Shown one piece after another: positions 8,462 through 39,263 of a stretch of DNA of 44,580 nt. The stretch is from Candidatus Kapaibacterium sp. (lineage in GTDB: Bacteria > Bacteroidota > Ignavibacteria > Kapaibacteriales > WFXC01), in NCBI GenBank assembly GCA_027082775.1, contig JALWUI010000159.1, positions 1 to 44,580 of the forward strand. Reading direction: 5' to 3'. A model generated the notes under the pieces. It did no database searches. It was not told where the DNA came from and saw only the letters and a list, made by a program, of their open reading frames with translations. Made by a program: the position numbers and the translations under genes. How positions within the stretch are numbered: position 1 is the first letter of the stretch; each line of letters opens with the position of its first letter.

Positions 8462-9208
8462 ATGTCTCCACAGCTTCAGCAACGGCTGGAATCTATCCGC
8501 ACCAATACAACTGCCGGGAGCCGACAGTTGGTACTTTTTGCCCTCGATGCACTGGCAGAATGCCGGTTTTCTTCTGAAGCTCTTTCCCATTTTCTGACCC
8601 AACTCCGGTGGATCCGTCCTGCAATGGCAGCATTTCGCACGATCAGTCGTTTCCTCTCCGATCAACTCCAGCACATCTCCTGTCCAACTGCTGTCGAGAA
8701 AACCAGAGCGCTCATACAACGCAGTTCCCGTGAAACGATCCAGACCGCTTTACAGCAGCTTCCGCATCACGGCACCGTTGCCACCATCAGTTACAGCTCC
8801 CTCATTGAACAAATTCTGGTCGAAGGAATCCACGAAGGAAAACAGTGGAACATCTACTGCTTCCGTTCCGGCACTCCTGCTTATGGCGAATTTTTCCAGC
8901 AACGACTCCATCGGGCTGGCATTCCCGCCACCGTACTTCCAGATGCTGTGCCATCGCACCCCATCGATTTTGTTCTGATCGGTGCTGACACAGTCTCCCC
9001 GTCCTATGGACTTATCAACGGACACCCCAGCTATTCGCTCTGCGCTCTACTCTTCTACCAGATTCCCATTTATTGCTGCGCCGAGTCTTTTAAATATGAC
9101 GCATCGCTTGTACTGGAACCCGGCTTCGACTTTCTTCCTGCTTCCTTCGGTATTCACCAAATTTCCGACTCCGTCTGGATCGATTCTTTAGCAGAACATC
9201 GCTCATAA
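8462..9208 (+). CDS. IF-2B (eIF2B alpha/beta/delta)-like protein
   Basis: A 248-residue protein of the IF-2B/MtnA superfamily, which includes ribose-1,5-bisphosphate isomerase and methylthioribose-1-phosphate isomerase as well as eukaryotic eIF2B subunits. A helical N-terminal domain is followed by a Rossmann-like half with VATISYSSLIEQIL and FVLIGADTVSPSYGLING. The family's AESxKxD-like segment appears as CAESFKYD. A sugar-phosphate isomerase role is plausible, but the substrate cannot be told. It lies in the same direction as fbp and the DUF434 gene, and ends at the edge of the DnaA-box region. Confidence 0.75.
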   Translation: MSPQLQQRLESIRTNTTAGSRQLVLFALDALAECRFSSEALSHFLTQLRWIRPAMAAFRTISRFLSDQLQHISCPTAVEKTRALIQRSSRETIQTALQQLPHHGTVATISYSSLIEQILVEGIHEGKQWNIYCFRSGTPAYGEFFQQRLHRAGIPATVLPDAVPSHPIDFVLIGADTVSPSYGLINGHPSYSLCALLFYQIPIYCCAESFKYDASLVLEPGFDFLPASFGIHQISDSVWIDSLAEHRS

Positions 9209-9708
9209 AGAGCCGTGTTTCCGGACATCGGGCTCCATTCAGCTCTTTTCTTAACATAACGGACAGCCAACTCGCTCCGACCTCCCCTTAAAAGATTTTT
9301 CCTGCAAATTCTTCCTTAGTTTTCCAGGTCAGCGGTTATGTTAAACAAACCTCTTCCCGTTTTCCACAATCATCCACAAATCGAGTGTTTCTGAACTGTG
9401 GAAATCCGTGGAAAACTTACCACTTTGTCCACACTTTTACTGTGGAAAACTTGTTTATCCACAACGCTGTGGATAACTCCGCACTTTTCCACATCATTTT
9501 CCACATACGACCAGTGTTCGCTCTCCCCTTGATTCCGTAGGAACGAGCACTTCTTCCATCCCGGCTTTTCCACTTTTCCACATCTCCTGAAACTACAACC
9601 AGAGAAGAGAAAGCTCAATTCCTGTAACGGAAAATGAAGAGCAACCGCTTCTCTCACGGGTTTTCCCTATATTCGCAACATTGTAGAACAAAGTGGAGCA
9701 AACAGAAA
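9209..9708. other. oriC: Candidate chromosomal replication origin (oriC) with DnaA-box cluster
   Basis: A gene-free region with at least twelve DnaA boxes or one-mismatch boxes in about 220 bases. Perfect TTATCCACA is at 9455-9463 and its inverse TGTGGATAA at 9468-9476, a back-to-back pair separated by four bases. TTTTCCACA (fits TTWTNCACA) is at 9360-9368, 9485-9493, 9497-9505 and 9574-9582, and inverted at 9441-9449. Near matches start at 9370, 9397, 9407, 9425 and 9566. An AT-richer stretch near 9288-9346 to the left could be the unwinding element. The strand composition changes sign here. dnaA and dnaN are not adjacent, as is common in Bacteroidota. No other function explains this box density. 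Confidence 0.8.
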
Positions 9709-10338
9709 ATGAAACGGTTTAGCCTAATTCTGCTTCTCAGCCTTGGAGTGACCATTGCACATGCGCAGTTATTCTATCCGCTTGGTGTCGGAATTGGTCT
9801 AACAGGACAGATGGGAATCAACGCTGGCGATATTCCGCAGGGAGAAAAAACAGAGCTTGCAATTGCGCCTCTACCGAATTTCTTCGCTTCTGCGTGGTAC
9901 ATTGTTTCGCAGAAGGAAGACTTCGGATTTGCGCTGGATGTGGGATACACCACGAACACGTTCATAATGAAGCCGTACCAGAATGTCACGGACCAAAACC
10001 GCTTCCAGTATGTTCTCAGCTACCTGAGCGTTCATCCGTACATCCAGTTCAAAATGTTTAACCTGGGCGTTGGGCTGGGATTCCCGCTAAGCGGCAAAAG
10101 AGAGAACGTTGCCGGAACAATCTCACAAGAACTATCAAACCTTGCAACGGCGATAGAACTCCGGTTCAAACTCTCGGTTCCCGTGTACCGGGATGCAACG
10201 GGTAAGGTGAGTTTCTGGATTACCGGAGCGTACCAGCTTAATGGGATTTATGCATCGGACATTCCCAACAATCCCAAAGTTGCCTCCGCAGGCATTGGGT
10301 TCAGCTATCACTTTCACTTCCGCCTGTGGGAATACTAA
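9709..10338 (+). CDS. Predicted outer-membrane beta-barrel protein
   Basis: A 209-residue secreted protein. A signal peptide (MKRFSLILLLSLGVTIAHA, cut before QLF) is followed by alternating hydrophobic and polar strands rich in Gly, Tyr and Phe (for example FGFALDVGYTTNTFIM, VGLGFPLSG). It ends in an aromatic residue (FHFRLWEY), as outer-membrane barrels usually do. The start is the ATG at 9709; the longer frame from 9634 has no signal-peptide logic and runs into the origin region. The leader carries TATATTCGC followed by GTAGAACAAAG, similar to leaders of other genes here. The family was not recognised. The next gene begins 11 bases downstream. Confidence 0.7.
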   Translation: MKRFSLILLLSLGVTIAHAQLFYPLGVGIGLTGQMGINAGDIPQGEKTELAIAPLPNFFASAWYIVSQKEDFGFALDVGYTTNTFIMKPYQNVTDQNRFQYVLSYLSVHPYIQFKMFNLGVGLGFPLSGKRENVAGTISQELSNLATAIELRFKLSVPVYRDATGKVSFWITGAYQLNGIYASDIPNNPKVASAGIGFSYHFHFRLWEY

Positions 10339-10349
10339 GTCCGGTGGTT

Positions 10350-12062
10350 ATGCACCGGCAGGTGTGGAACGTCCTTTTTGCGGGCATTCTCGGATTTTTC
10401 AGCATATTTTCCCTTTTCCGATGCGCGCATCCTCTACCGCCACCGGGAGGACCGCGGGATACCATTCCGCCGACTGTTTTGCAGACAATTCCTACCAGTG
10501 GAACCGTTCGATGGGAACGTCCACAGATTTCCATCGTTTTCAGTGAGGAAATCGCCGTTCAATCTCCCGCCAGGTACATTACCATTTTTCCCCCCACGAA
10601 TTTTCGTGCTGAGTGGGTTGAGGATGACGAGTTGGAAATTCATCTGGATTCGCTCCGGAGCAATCAGACCTATGTTGTTACTGTGAGTCCGGCGTTTCGG
10701 GATGTTGAAGGCAATACGCTGGAAAAGGCGGTAACGCTGGTTTTTTCGACTGGTGACACGATCAGTCAATACGGCGTTGTGGGCAGGATATGGGGGAGAC
10801 ACCGTGGGAGTAAAACCATCGTGTTGTTAACGCAGGAAGGCACGAAGTGGCAGGATTCATTGTGGTATCAGCAGCCGGACTACTGGCTGGAGGTGGGAGC
10901 AGACGGAACGTTCCAGTTTCCTGCTTTGCTTCCGCGGCGATACCGTATCGCTGCTTTTGAAGATCGGAACGGCAATGGTCGGTACGATCGTGGATGGGAG
11001 GCAGCGACGGTTGGATGGAGAGAAGTGGTGCTGGGACCGGTGGTGACTGATACTATTGAGCTGTGGATGTCACCCGTTCCAGACCGGGAGCCGCCGAAGC
11101 TCATTGGAGCAACGCCGCTGACTGCTCGATTGCTCCGGCTGCGGTTTTCTGAACCACTCGATACCGCTTCGATTCAACCGGCAGCATTCTGGTGCCGGGA
11201 TACCGCAACAGGACGGATGCTCAAACCATCGGGAGCAGGGCTGGAGCCGGGAAAACAAACAACTGTTTTGCTGGCATTTGCTACCCCGCTGGCATCCAGC
11301 ATCTGGGATGTTGGCGCCAGCACCGTAGCAGACACCGCAGGAAATGTGCTCGACACCCTCCAGAATCAGGTGCAGTTTCGAATGCCCATACTCGCCGATA
11401 CGCTTGTACCACGCATCGCTGAACTTCCCCTCAAGGGCGACAGTTTGCAGCTTCTGCTCCCGTTTTTTCACTGGATCTTTGCTTTTTCTGTTCCAATGGA
11501 TACGGGGGCAACGGCAGCGGCAATTTCACTTCATCGATTGGACAGTGGGCAGACGGTACCATTGCAGAAACGATGGAAAAGCCAGACCCACATTGAACTT
11601 CAGCCGGTGGATACCCTTTTACCACAGCAGTGGTATGAGCTGCGCATTGATACGGTCGCCATCGCTGTTGGAGGGGTATCGTTGCCCTCTCCGGTTCGCA
11701 TCCGTTTCCGCACGCCCGATCTTCGGGACTTTGGAGAATTCGTCGGGGAGATTCAGGATGCGCATCCCGGAGGACCGTATATCCTGATCGTTCAGGGAAT
11801 CGGTTACGGTATGCAGTATCGGCATACGCTTCAGCAGCCGGGCACGTGGCGTATTCCATCGGTGGTGCCCGATCGGTATCAACTGTGGTGCTTTGAAGAT
11901 GCCAATCGCAATGGACGGTTCGATGTTGGACGCATCGATCCGTATCAACCGTCAGAGCGCTTTACGGGGTGGCAAACGGTCGTGCGGGTAGCACCACGGT
12001 GGACTACCGAAGGAATTCAGATCCGGATGCCGGGACATCCCGCCGCTTCTCGATCAGAATAA
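10350..12062 (+). CDS. Ig-like domain lipoprotein
   Basis: A 570-residue predicted lipoprotein. The signal peptide ends at a lipobox (SLFRC), then a Pro-rich tether APLPPPGG-like stretch and RDTIPPTV. The first 100 residues form a bacterial Ig-like (Big_5/SbsA) domain of the kind common in Bacteroidota, and a second begins at DREPPKLIGATPLTA. Two copies of an acidic motif, FEDRNGNGRYD and FEDANRNGRFD, look like calcium-binding loops within carboxypeptidase-regulatory-like modules. The start at 10350 follows the preceding stop by 11 bases. The 3' end overlaps mnmM (opposite strand) by 59 bases. It probably faces the cell surface or periplasm; its precise role is unknown. Confidence 0.78.
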   Translation: MHRQVWNVLFAGILGFFSIFSLFRCAHPLPPPGGPRDTIPPTVLQTIPTSGTVRWERPQISIVFSEEIAVQSPARYITIFPPTNFRAEWVEDDELEIHLDSLRSNQTYVVTVSPAFRDVEGNTLEKAVTLVFSTGDTISQYGVVGRIWGRHRGSKTIVLLTQEGTKWQDSLWYQQPDYWLEVGADGTFQFPALLPRRYRIAAFEDRNGNGRYDRGWEAATVGWREVVLGPVVTDTIELWMSPVPDREPPKLIGATPLTARLLRLRFSEPLDTASIQPAAFWCRDTATGRMLKPSGAGLEPGKQTTVLLAFATPLASSIWDVGASTVADTAGNVLDTLQNQVQFRMPILADTLVPRIAELPLKGDSLQLLLPFFHWIFAFSVPMDTGATAAAISLHRLDSGQTVPLQKRWKSQTHIELQPVDTLLPQQWYELRIDTVAIAVGGVSLPSPVRIRFRTPDLRDFGEFVGEIQDAHPGGPYILIVQGIGYGMQYRHTLQQPGTWRIPSVVPDRYQLWCFEDANRNGRFDVGRIDPYQPSERFTGWQTVVRVAPRWTTEGIQIRMPGHPAASRSE

Positions 12063-33784: not shown

Positions 33785-35440
33785 ATGAAGAGGATTTTTT
33801 GCTTTATTTCAGTGCTTGGCATTTGGATGGGAGTGCTTCGAGCACAGGTACTGGACATTGCCGATGCGCGGCAGCAGCCGCCCGGCAGTGTGGTAACCGT
33901 CAGTGGGGTTGTGACCGTCGCGCAGCAATTTGGGAATCCCGCTTTTATCCAGGATCGGACTGCGGGCATTGCTGTTTATGACTTTGATTTTATCCAGCAG
34001 GTGCAGATTGGAGATTCCGTGGTAGTGCGAGGCACGCTGTCGGAGTTTGGGCAGCAGAATGGGCAGCCGGGAAGTGGATTGTTGGAGTTAACCGATGTGA
34101 CCCTGATGCAGAAAGTGTCCGGAGCGCGGATTGATACGCTTGCAGTATCGCTCGCGGCCATTGATGAAACGATCGAAGGACGATTGGTGCGCATTGATTC
34201 GGTCTTCTGGACGCTGTTGCGGGACGATTTTTTCCCTGCGGAATCGCGCAATTATGGGATTTTTGATCCAACGGGAGCGGGCGAAATTCGGGTGGATAAC
34301 AATACGGAGCTGGGAGGAAAACGGATTCCCCACACACCCTTCGATTTGATTGGCGTAGTGTCGCAGTATCGAGGGCAGTATCAGATTATGCCACGATTTG
34401 TAACCGATTTGCAGCCGCTTCCGCCGCGGCAGGCAGTGCCTGATTCCCAGCGGTTGACACTGGTGACCTGGAATTTGGAATGGTTTGGAGATCCCAATCG
34501 AGAACCATCGGATGATGCTGCCCAGTTTGCGGGTGTCTATGCGCTGATTGACAGTGTGAATGCGGATATTTACCTGCTGCAGGAAGTTGCAAACCCGACG
34601 GTATTTCAGCAGTTGGCGGATTCGCTGGCGCGCTATGACGGGTATCTGGCGCCGTACGATCAGGAGCTGCGCACGGGGTATCTGGTAAAGCGGTCGGAAA
34701 TTACAGTGCTGGACACGAATCTGCTTTTTACCGCGGCACCATCTGACGCCTGGGCGTGGGGACGGTATCCGTTCCATCTGGTGTTCCGCTGGCGGGGAGT
34801 CCGGCTGCACGTGCTCAATCTCCATATGAAGTCGGGAACCAATCTGGAGGATCAGCAGTTGCGGTGGCGGGATGCGATGATTCTGTACAATGGACTCTCC
34901 AGCCGGTGGAGCGATTCGTTGCTCATTGTTGGCGGCGACTGGAACGATGATTTCGACGAAAGTATTGTGCCGGGAGTACCATCGCCGTACGAAGCATTCG
35001 TTGCTGATTCAGGGAATTTCATCGTGCCGGATTACTGGTTGAGTGTGCGGGGCGTTGGCACCCATCGAGGAGGCTCGTTTCTGGATCATTTTGTGATGAT
35101 GGGAGTGATGCGGACTTTGCCAATTCAGTGGCAGGCAGGAGTTGTGCTGCCATCTTCTGTGGAACGGAACTTTGCAACGGTTTCGGATCATCTCCCTTTG
35201 CAACTGGAGCTGGTGTGGCAACCATCGACGGTTATCCCGGAGTGGGAAGCGGCGAAAATCCGGGTTCTCCATAAACAGCTTCTGCTGGAGCGTCCAGCAA
35301 CGATCCGGATTTATACGTTATGGGGACAGCACATTGGCACGTGGCGGCGGGTTTATCGGGTCGATCTCTCATTTTTGCCCCCGCAACCGGTCGTGTATGT
35401 GCTCAATGGGCGTCAGCGGGGGATTCTGATGGTACGGTAG
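33785..35440 (+). CDS. Secreted endonuclease/exonuclease/phosphatase-family nuclease with T9SS-like C-terminus
   Basis: A 551-residue secreted protein. The signal peptide is MKRIFCFISVLGIWMGVLRA, cut before QVL. An OB-fold domain (about residues 20-200; VVTVAQQFGNPAFIQDRTAG) is followed by the EEP nuclease domain with LVTWNLEWFG, LLQEV, GGDWND and SDHLPL, the metal- and catalytic-residue motifs. The C-terminus (IRIYTLWGQHIGTW) is T9SS-like. It could act as a DNase or a phosphodiesterase outside the cell. AGGA lies seven bases before the ATG at 33785; ATG 33782 is an alternative. The stop is one base from a parS site and the 3' end overlaps mnmG. Confidence 0.85.
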   Translation: MKRIFCFISVLGIWMGVLRAQVLDIADARQQPPGSVVTVSGVVTVAQQFGNPAFIQDRTAGIAVYDFDFIQQVQIGDSVVVRGTLSEFGQQNGQPGSGLLELTDVTLMQKVSGARIDTLAVSLAAIDETIEGRLVRIDSVFWTLLRDDFFPAESRNYGIFDPTGAGEIRVDNNTELGGKRIPHTPFDLIGVVSQYRGQYQIMPRFVTDLQPLPPRQAVPDSQRLTLVTWNLEWFGDPNREPSDDAAQFAGVYALIDSVNADIYLLQEVANPTVFQQLADSLARYDGYLAPYDQELRTGYLVKRSEITVLDTNLLFTAAPSDAWAWGRYPFHLVFRWRGVRLHVLNLHMKSGTNLEDQQLRWRDAMILYNGLSSRWSDSLLIVGGDWNDDFDESIVPGVPSPYEAFVADSGNFIVPDYWLSVRGVGTHRGGSFLDHFVMMGVMRTLPIQWQAGVVLPSSVERNFATVSDHLPLQLELVWQPSTVIPEWEAAKIRVLHKQLLLERPATIRIYTLWGQHIGTWRRVYRVDLSFLPPQPVVYVLNGRQRGILMVR

Positions 35441-37313
35441 ATGTTCCACGTGGAACATTGCGGAGGTAGAGTGCCAGGATGGAAAGATCCGCAGCCGTCA
35501 CGCCAGCAATGCGCGAAGCCTGTCCCAGCGAATGTGGTCGGATCTTTGCCAGCTTTTCCCGGGCTTCGGTCGAGAGCGAAGGAATAGCGGCATAGTCGAT
35601 GTCCGGCGGAATCCGTTTTTCCTCCATCGCCCGCAGCCGCTCCACTTCCCGACGCTGCCGCTCGATGTACCCCGCATATTTGATTTCCAGTTCTACCTGT
35701 TCCCGAACGGCTGCTGGAAGGGAGGTGAGATCCCAGCCAAGCGCTGTCAACAGTTCCTCCAGTGTTACTTTGCCCCGCCGCAACAGCTTTTCCAGTGACG
35801 TGGCTTCCGTAATGGGAGCTTCGCCAATAGCGGTCAGATAGGCGTTGATAGCGTCGGGCGTTGCTTTCGTTGTTTGAAGCTGCTGGTGGAGTTGCGCGAT
35901 GGCTGCTTCTTTGGCAAGCAGTTGTTCGTACAATTCTGGTTCAATCAATCCTAATTCGTAGCCATAACGCAGCAGGCGTCGGTCTGCATTGTCCTGCCGC
36001 AGCAGCAGTCGATATTCTGCCCGCGAAGTGAACATTCGGTACGGTTCGTCGACGTCTTTGTTGATGAGATCGTCGATCAAAACGCCAATGTAGGCTTCCG
36101 ATCGCTGGAGTTTGAATTCGCCCTCACCACGTACCAGCAGTGCCGCATTGATTCCGGCAATGAGTCCCTGGGCAGCGGCTTCTTCATATCCCGACGTTCC
36201 GTTGATCTGTCCAGCGAAAAACAGCCCCCGGATTGCTTTGGTTTCCAGGGTAAAGTGGAGCTGGTAGGGGTAGAAAAAGTCGTACTCGACGGCGTAGCCG
36301 TAGCGGAGAATGCGGGCGTTTTCCATACCGGGAATGGTGCGCAGCGCCCGCTCCTGAATATCCCGCGGTAAGCTGGTGGAGAATCCGTTGACATACACCG
36401 AGTTTGTGCCCAAGCCTTCGGGTTCGAGCACGATCCGATGCGATTCTTTGTCTGCGAATCGGTACACTTTATCTTCGACCGAAGGGCAGTACCGCGGACC
36501 TCGCCCCGTGATCTTGCCCGTGAACATCGGGGAGCGATCGAAGCCTTCCGCGATAATTTCGTGTGTTTCTGCGGTCGTGCGGGTCATATAACAGAGAATC
36601 TTGTTTTCGACGGATTGGGTACGCAAAGAAAATGGCTGGGGAGGCTCATCCCCGGGATGGATTTCCATCTTGCGGAGATCGAGTGTTTCCAGAGCAACCC
36701 GTGGTGGCGTACCGGTTTTGAGCCGTCCGCGCTGGAGACCGTAACTTTCCAGCAGATCCGAGATTTTGGTGGCACTCTTTTCACCAAAGCGTCCTCCGGT
36801 TGTCGCTTCCAGTCCGGTGTACATTACTCCGTTGAGGAAGGTTCCGCCACACAGCACGACGGCTGTGGTTTTGAGCTGTTCGCGGTCGTCCAGGAGCACT
36901 CCAACGACCCGATCGTTGCGGACCAGAATTTCCGTCACCGTACCCTCAATCAGGGTTAAGCTGGGCAGGGATTGGAGCAGTTGTCGAGCGAACAGCGGAT
37001 AGAGAGCTTTATCATTTTGCGACCGGGGCGACCACACGGCAGGACCGCGGGAGCGGTTCAGGAGTTTGAACTGAATGCCGCTCCGGTCTGCTAAGACACC
37101 CATCACGCCGCCCAGGGCATCAATTTCTTTCACCAGATGCCCTTTTGCTGTTCCGCCAACGGCAGGATTACACGAAAGCCGTCCAATGGTGTCAAGGGAC
37201 ATCGTCACCAGCGCAACACGGCATCCCATCCGGGCAGCCGCCGCTGCTGCTTCGATGCCAGCGTGCCCACCGCCGATGACAATGACATCGTATGTATCCG
37301 ATCGATTGCGCAT
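35403..37313 (-). CDS. mnmG: tRNA uridine 5-carboxymethylaminomethyl modification enzyme MnmG
   Basis: A 636-residue FAD/NADH enzyme that with MnmE installs the (carboxymethyl)aminomethyl group on U34 of tRNAs. FAD motif VIVIGGGHAGIEAAAAAARM is at the N-terminus. The signatures LSCNPAVGGTAKGHLV and GLFFAGQINGTSGYEEAAAQ are intact, with the C-terminal helical tRNA/MnmE-binding domain (RPHSLGQASRIAGVTAADLS). Length is normal. parS copies lie just upstream of the start codon and within its last codons (NVPRGT). mnmE is 576 bases upstream with a GNAT gene between them. Confidence 0.97.
   Translation of the reverse strand: MRNRSDTYDVIVIGGGHAGIEAAAAAARMGCRVALVTMSLDTIGRLSCNPAVGGTAKGHLVKEIDALGGVMGVLADRSGIQFKLLNRSRGPAVWSPRSQNDKALYPLFARQLLQSLPSLTLIEGTVTEILVRNDRVVGVLLDDREQLKTTAVVLCGGTFLNGVMYTGLEATTGGRFGEKSATKISDLLESYGLQRGRLKTGTPPRVALETLDLRKMEIHPGDEPPQPFSLRTQSVENKILCYMTRTTAETHEIIAEGFDRSPMFTGKITGRGPRYCPSVEDKVYRFADKESHRIVLEPEGLGTNSVYVNGFSTSLPRDIQERALRTIPGMENARILRYGYAVEYDFFYPYQLHFTLETKAIRGLFFAGQINGTSGYEEAAAQGLIAGINAALLVRGEGEFKLQRSEAYIGVLIDDLINKDVDEPYRMFTSRAEYRLLLRQDNADRRLLRYGYELGLIEPELYEQLLAKEAAIAQLHQQLQTTKATPDAINAYLTAIGEAPITEATSLEKLLRRGKVTLEELLTALGWDLTSLPAAVREQVELEIKYAGYIERQRREVERLRAMEEKRIPPDIDYAAIPSLSTEAREKLAKIRPHSLGQASRIAGVTAADLSILALYLRNVPRGTSTVPSESPADAH
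35442..35457. promoter_or_regulatory. parS: parS site, ParB-binding palindrome (left copy)
   Basis: Perfect 16-base palindrome TGTTCCACGTGGAACA, extendable to 18 bases (35441-35458). It is the same type as the GTTCCACGTGGAAC parS of pseudomonads and other bacteria. It overlaps the mnmG C-terminal codons and lies one base past the nuclease stop. Confidence 0.9.
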
Positions 37314-37329
37314 TGTTCCACGTGGAACA
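37314..37329. promoter_or_regulatory. parS: parS site, ParB-binding palindrome (right copy)
   Basis: A second perfect TGTTCCACGTGGAACA, identical over 16 bases to the left copy and 1.87 kb from it. Its last base abuts the ATG of mnmG (37313-37311), so it occupies the ribosome-binding zone of that gene. Confidence 0.92.
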
Positions 37330-37889: not shown

Positions 37890-39263
37890 TCATTTGCCAA
37901 TACAAAACCGTGAAAAAATGGCTTGCAGCACTTCGTCTGTATAAACTTCGCCAGTGATCTTGCCGATGGCGTTCAGCGCTTCGCGCACCTCAACAGCGAC
38001 AAATTCATTGGACAGACCGGCACGGAGTGCGTCGATTGCCGCTGCTAAGGAACGAGCAGCCGCAGCTAACAACGTTGCCTGACGTTCATTGATCAGGCCA
38101 TCGGTGACGCGCTGACTGTCCTCTTTTGCAATCGTTGCCAGTGTGCGCTTGAGCTGGCCAAGCCCTTCCCCCGTTCTGGCAGAAATGCCAAGGGTCTGAA
38201 CCGATCCGTTCGAGGGAAATGCTGAAGGAGGATCCGGGATCAGGTCCAGCTTGTTGTGGACCAGTAAATACCGCGACTGCGGATAGCGTTGCTGCAGCGC
38301 GGCAAGTAAAGAGTTTGAGTGATCAAATCCCAGCGAGGCATCGTTAAGGACCAGGACCAGATTAGACTGTTGCAAGATCGAGTGTGCCAGCTCGATCCCT
38401 TCCAGCTCAATGCGATCCGCCGGTTTGTCACGAAGACCGGCGGTGTCTACCAGTTTAATGCTCATTCCGTCCAGAAACAGCACTTCTTCAATGTAGTCGC
38501 GAGTGGTGCCCGGCAGGTCGCTGACAATTGCCCGCTGCTTGCCCAAAAGCGCATTCAGCAGAGAAGATTTTCCCGCATTGGGATATCCTACGATACCCAC
38601 AACATATCCCCCACGGAGAATTTCTGCTGCAACGACGCTATCAGCTAATTCGGAGCAAATGTGGTGAACTGCTTTTAATTGCTGGATCACGGTTTCACGG
38701 TCGATCAGCTCAATGTCTTCCTCTGCAAAGTCCAGCTCCAATTCTAATAGACCAGCGATGTCAATCAGTTGTTGCCGCAACTGTTGCAGCCGACGGGTCA
38801 GCCCACCAACCAGTTGCCGGGCGGCTGCCTGTGCGCCCGGAATGGTCTGAGCGTGGATTAAGTCGGCGACTGCTTCAACCTGCGTCAGATCCAGCTTGCC
38901 ATTGAGAAATGCCCGCTTGGTGAATTCTCCCGGCTCTGCGTGGCGAGCGCCAGCCGTGATCAGTGCGTTGAGAATCTGTTGCGTGACCAGCGGTCCCCCG
39001 TGGCAGCCAAATTCCACCACATCTTCGCCGGTGTACGAATGAGGAGCGCGGAACACTGAAGCCGTGACCGTATCAATGAGCTGCGGACCGTCGTAGAACT
39101 TCCCATAGTGAATGGTGTGGGTGGGCACTGTTGCCAGCGCCGCTTTGCCACGGAAGCAGCGATCGGCAATGATGAAAGCATCCGGTCCTGAGAGCCGGAC
39201 AATTGCAATACCCCCAATGCCGGGTGGCGTTGCCACTGCGCAAATAGTGTCTTTGCTGATCAT
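37890..39263 (-). CDS. mnmE: tRNA modification GTPase MnmE
   Basis: A 457-residue GTPase partner of MnmG. An N-terminal tetrahydrofolate-binding domain (TICAVATPPGIGGIAIVRLS) is followed by a helical domain carrying the inserted Ras-like G domain: G1 GYPNAGKSSLL, G2-G3 DLPGTTRDY and DTAGLRDK, G4 NKLD. It ends in the invariant FCIGK, whose Cys is needed for activity. Length is standard. AGGAGG lies about 20 bases before the ATG, too far for a normal ribosome site. Confidence 0.97.
   Translation of the reverse strand: MISKDTICAVATPPGIGGIAIVRLSGPDAFIIADRCFRGKAALATVPTHTIHYGKFYDGPQLIDTVTASVFRAPHSYTGEDVVEFGCHGGPLVTQQILNALITAGARHAEPGEFTKRAFLNGKLDLTQVEAVADLIHAQTIPGAQAAARQLVGGLTRRLQQLRQQLIDIAGLLELELDFAEEDIELIDRETVIQQLKAVHHICSELADSVVAAEILRGGYVVGIVGYPNAGKSSLLNALLGKQRAIVSDLPGTTRDYIEEVLFLDGMSIKLVDTAGLRDKPADRIELEGIELAHSILQQSNLVLVLNDASLGFDHSNSLLAALQQRYPQSRYLLVHNKLDLIPDPPSAFPSNGSVQTLGISARTGEGLGQLKRTLATIAKEDSQRVTDGLINERQATLLAAAARSLAAAIDALRAGLSNEFVAVEVREALNAIGKITGEVYTDEVLQAIFSRFCIGK

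Follow-up and report, generated by a model that had tools for sequence, protein, structure and literature searches.

A DnaA-box array away from dnaA as the probable chromosomal replication origin of a Candidatus Kapaibacterium lineage

Bidirectional replication of the chromosome of Candidatus Kapaibacterium sp. almost certainly starts in an intergenic region at positions 9209-9708 of the window, the whole stretch of 44,580 nucleotides that was analysed here. In this region, a DnaA-box array that is unique in the genome and conserved in sister species coincides with a turn of the GC skew, and it shares its contig with a parS/mnmG domain; together, these features point to an ordinary DnaA-type oriC that does not lie beside dnaA. 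The first-pass annotation, made from this stretch of DNA by itself, had read the region as an oriC, a reading that is now supported by the unique cluster, its 12 conserved boxes, the skew turn and a pair of parS sites. Our literature search found no report on a Kapabacteria origin; judged by the papers it covered, the location, an overlapping tandem of boxes, the two parS sites framing mnmG and a layout shared with relatives are new for this lineage. The kind of origin is already known, since origins away from dnaA occur in other bacteria and are not unusual per se (PMC10225481).

The DnaA-box array and its conservation

The region is delimited by the stop codon of an IF-2B-family gene at 9208 (8462-9208, + strand; Pfam PF01008, E = 2e-13) and by the likely ATG of an outer-membrane-protein-like ORF at 9709 (9709-10338, + strand), which has a signal-peptide-like start and is without a Pfam match. 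These ORF limits bear out the earlier description of a gene-free gap between an IF-2B-like and an outer-membrane gene. Within the gap, a box scan places the array at 9360-9582, where seven exact and five one-mismatch TTWTCCACA boxes are found in 223 bp. Two TTATCCACA boxes, at 9455 (+) and 9468 (-), are separated by a gap of four bases and form an inverted pair at the array centre, TTATCCACA-N4-TGTGGATAA (9455-9476). Five TTTTCCACA boxes are located at 9360 (+), 9441 (-), 9485 (+), 9497 (+) and 9574 (+), and the one-mismatch boxes at 9370, 9397 (-), 9407 (-), 9425 and 9566. The TTTTCCACA boxes at 9485 and 9497 constitute a direct pair (9485-9505, +) with a start-to-start distance of 12 bp, a spacing that also occurs in the relatives G009, G010, G011 and G007. 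At the right end of the array, the boxes at 9566 and 9574 form the tandem TTTTCCACTTTTCCACA (9566-9582, +), in which the two boxes start 8 bp apart and overlap by one base; this signature is shared within the order.

The whole 44.6-kb window contains eight exact boxes, compared to 0.63 expected by chance. Dinucleotide shuffling of the gap, repeated 1,000 times, gave a mean of 0.02 exact boxes (maximum 1, versus 7 real ones) and of 0.55 boxes with at most one mismatch (maximum 3, versus 12). Our rescan is in exact agreement with the box counts of the first-pass annotation (two perfect boxes, one of them inverted, five of a second type and at least five with one mismatch), but its estimate that chance would give 'perhaps one' was overgenerous, given the average of 0.02 exact boxes in the shuffled gap. 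The search for equal box density at other intergenic regions, a finding that it had named as a possible refutation, was run across the draft genome and does not refute the origin reading. The draft genome (2,744,381 bases in 215 contigs) has 76 exact boxes, and those outside the array are all more than 300 bp apart. The array is the sole box cluster of the draft genome, and thus the dense, unique intergenic cluster that characterizes a DnaA-type oriC. Isolated overlapping box tandems are found elsewhere in the genome, at G000:C46:7014 (L168) and G000:C35:23297, with apparent sister-genome counterparts at G002:C35, G001:C13 and G002:C68; these are perhaps DnaA-controlled promoters or titration sites.

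For the analysis of conservation, we mainly compared the window with G001, a sister species of the same genus, and additionally with a second sister, G002, in which only part of the region is present. Between the window and G001, none of the 107 alignment columns within boxes is changed, as opposed to 88 of the 395 other columns of the gap (p = 8e-11). All 12 boxes are identical in G001, and all 12 are also kept in the part available from G002, which is the pattern that would be expected from selection on the boxes. Synteny around the array is maintained in the sister species. The IF-2B-like gene, when searched in relatives, is close in one sister species only and is therefore not a conserved origin neighbour. 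It was not found in the G002 genome, where the contig in question (L021, G002:C24:1) has its first bases within the origin, in the arm GTTATGTTAA of an inverted repeat; this may reflect a rearrangement or a gap in the assembly. Beyond the genus, a DNA search with the gap returned nothing apart from a 28-bp, 93 % match of 9283-9310 in G036 (L023), which is located upstream of an apparent ATP-synthase operon. There is no box cluster at that place, and the match is probably due to chance.

GC skew and the parS-mnmG domain

With the contigs of the draft genome unordered, GC skew was measured locally on individual stretches. In the window, it changes from -0.103 left of the array to +0.124 right of it (p = 9e-5, 1-kb bins), and in G001 from -0.078 to +0.069 over 87 kb (p = 3e-8). 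The cumulative skew reaches its minimum at 10,597 in the window (array at 9360-9582) and at 98,584 in G001 (array at 97,346-97,568), so that the minima are 1.0-1.2 kb from the respective arrays. On the local scale, both the window and the sister species thus show the turn from negative to positive skew that is expected of an oriC, and its position at the array in both marks the array as an origin. Consequently, the GC-skew check proposed in the first-pass annotation, in this local form, leaves the oriC reading unrefuted. Further to the right, at 14.2-20.2 kb, a subtilase-like gene and three ORFs for secreted or lipoprotein-like products make up a block in which the GC skew is strongly positive (to 0.38). 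In G001, the genes that flank this block are direct neighbours, and no counterpart of the subtilase-like gene is found between them; the block raises the distance between the origin and mnmG from 20 to 26 kb.

The same window harbors further origin landmarks, which had been overlooked previously: mnmG, mnmE and a pair of parS sites. The genes mnmG (gidA; 35403-37313, - strand; Pfam PF01134, E = 7e-155) and mnmE (trmE; 37890-39263, - strand; Pfam PF12631 and PF10396) are located 26-30 kb right of the array. The genome has no parS sites other than two perfect copies of TGTTCCACGTGGAACA, which frame mnmG at a distance of 26 kb from the array, one within the mnmG 3' end, where it encodes VPRGT (35442-35457), and the other immediately upstream of the gene (37314-37329). 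As parS sites are generally found near origins, the presence of this pair on the contig of the array provides independent support for an oriC in this region. A parS site at mnmG is also present in G001, G002, G005 and G012, and one at or near mnmG in most of the 20 further mnmG neighbourhoods that we inspected in relatives. The genome encodes a DnaA with all three expected domains, including the box-reading domain with its DHTTV motif. Its gene is found on another contig (C125), adjoining thrS; this bears out the earlier placement of the array away from dnaA and sets it apart from origins of the dnaA-adjacent type. For ParB, one gene was found, on contig C77.

Recurrence of the layout across the order

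Across the order, the origin is tied to mnmG/mnmE and parS. In the closed genome G005, the skew turns at a box cluster 1.2 kb from mnmG, and in the closed genome G012, a local skew minimum is found 9 kb from mnmG; boxes near 2.32 Mb in G012 were also considered as its origin and rejected because the skew disagrees. Among the 20 further mnmG neighbourhoods, strong box clusters are found in G011, G009 and G033, at 2-6 kb from mnmG. These clusters score 11-13 and that of the window 19, whereas 38 control stretches, each 20 kb long, scored at most 5, with a single exception at 7. In several mnmG regions of relatives, no box cluster was found within 20-60 kb. With 26 kb, the distance between origin and mnmG is larger in the window than in many relatives, where it is 1-6 kb.

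The window, G009 and G005 have in common a 17-mer, TTWTCCACTTWTCCACA, which consists of two DnaA boxes with a one-base overlap. When we searched 123 genomes of the order for this 17-mer, allowing one mismatch, we found it in 55 of them, compared to nine for the reversed pattern. In 25 of the 26 genomes with both features on one contig, a count that takes in the genomes that defined the 17-mer (the window, G001, G005, G009 and G011), it lies at most 58 kb from mnmG. The sole exception, the closed genome G103 (genus g24), served as a prediction test: here, the 17-mer at 292.4 kb is 2.5 kb from a local skew turn at 294,823 and 48 kb from mnmE with its parS, while the skew is scrambled elsewhere in the genome. 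Both in family f5 (G035, G006, G022) and in G103, the signature is 48-57 kb from mnmG or mnmE, and in G103 the two genes are widely separated, with parS remaining by mnmE; this suggests that rearrangements have shifted mnmG/mnmE relative to the origin in these groups. In family f2 of the order, the 17-mer was not found. The tandem is not unique to the order, since exact matches also turned up in a broader set of genomes from the phylum; there, a minority of the genomes from other orders have it, and most of these belong to a small number of families.

The inner arrangement of the array recurs as well. The box order +,-,+,+ with steps of 13-17-12 (9455, 9468, 9485 and 9497) is found exactly in G010 (family f9), and with steps of 14-17-12 in G011 (f10). 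The distance from this core to the tandem is 69 bp in the window and 78-80 bp in G010 and G011, about one helical turn longer.

DnaA boxes also accumulate at sites that are not origins, and the array could in principle titrate or recycle DnaA, like datA or DARS in E. coli, which have several boxes as well and can be located at any position. This is very improbable, given that the array coincides with the skew turn in both species and lies within the parS domain, that its box number is far above that of any other locus in the genome, and that the 17-mer follows the skew turns in relatives. Even less credence is due to a DnaA-controlled promoter of the outer-membrane gene or a neighbouring operon. 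While the array is indeed upstream of a + strand gene, and isolated tandem boxes occur at other places in the genome, a promoter would need far fewer than the 12 boxes, in both orientations, that are spread over these 223 bp, relatives with the same layout have different neighbour genes, and the skew turn would be left unexplained. Some plasmids likewise carry DnaA boxes, but an origin that came in with an integrated plasmid, or with another mobile element, is just as hard to reconcile with the data, as the neighbours are chromosomal (pheT, fructose bisphosphatase, ychF, mnmG, mnmE), their synteny is retained in the sister species, and none of the window's ORFs was recognised as a plasmid initiator.

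Helix opening and comparison with known origins

Beside the boxes, the chromosomal origin proposed here has two candidate unwinding elements. The first, left of the array (9284-9327), stands out in the stability profile: no 40-mer of the gap is less stable than the one starting at 9287, and across the window only 0.02 % of 40-mers fall below it. It is flanked by a perfect inverted repeat with 10-bp arms, TTAACATAAC (9251-9260, +), which is conserved in the sister species, and GTTATGTTAA (9335-9344, +), and its positions 9284-9314 are identical in the sister species. The second, right of the tandem (9583-9640), is moderately unstable: in the stability ranking of the window, the 40-mers starting at 9580-9600 are among the lowest 1.4-3 %; here, positions 9600-9622 are identical in the sister species. 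Its place is that of the least stable DNA in most relatives: in 24 of 35 origins, the least stable 40-mer comes right after the tandem. Going by the relatives, the most likely opening site is predicted at 9583-9640, with 9284-9327 as the alternative.

In the mechanism we propose, DnaA, encoded elsewhere, would fill the array, and the tandem pair would guide it onto the adjoining unstable DNA. The helix would open there, helicases would be loaded and two forks would leave, and ParB would load at the distant parS pair for the segregation of the new origins. DnaA-trios are part of the basal unwinding system, BUS (PMC8287927), for which we required at least three trios within 16 bp of a box. The window has the tandem DnaA boxes of such a system (9566 and 9574), but the two trios at the tandem fall short of this number and are not above those in shuffles; the box at 9425 formally satisfies a lax trio rule. 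Tentatively, the overlapping pair, at about 65-80 bp from the fixed +,-,+,+ core, might be an order-wide platform from which DnaA is pushed onto the unwinding element even though clear DnaA-trios are missing, and this element might have been shifted or doubled in the genus of the window.

For a lineage known here from draft genomes alone, an origin placed in this way allows drafts to be oriented and growth rates to be estimated from the ratio of origin to terminus coverage in metagenomes. Together with parS at mnmG, the 17-mer provides a quick origin finder for many related genomes. The overlapping tandem is a test case for the generality of box-spacing rules in origin unwinding.

Several known systems resemble this origin in part. 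E. coli oriC, between gidA/mnmG and mioC, is likewise away from dnaA and near mnmG, and it also combines many boxes in both orientations with an unstable element (PMC10225481); in the window, by contrast, mnmG is 26 kb away, and overlapping tandem boxes and paired parS sites at mnmG characterize this lineage together with its relatives. Similarly, the BUS of B. subtilis and others has tandem DnaA boxes beside the presumed unwinding site, but these are up to 3 bp apart (PMC8287927), whereas the boxes described here overlap by one base and are accompanied by DnaA-trios at chance level. Finally, the oriC-parS-mnmE/mnmG domain of many bacteria likewise brings parS and mnmG/mnmE close to the origin; here, however, dnaA and parB are found on other contigs, and the parS pair frames mnmG itself.
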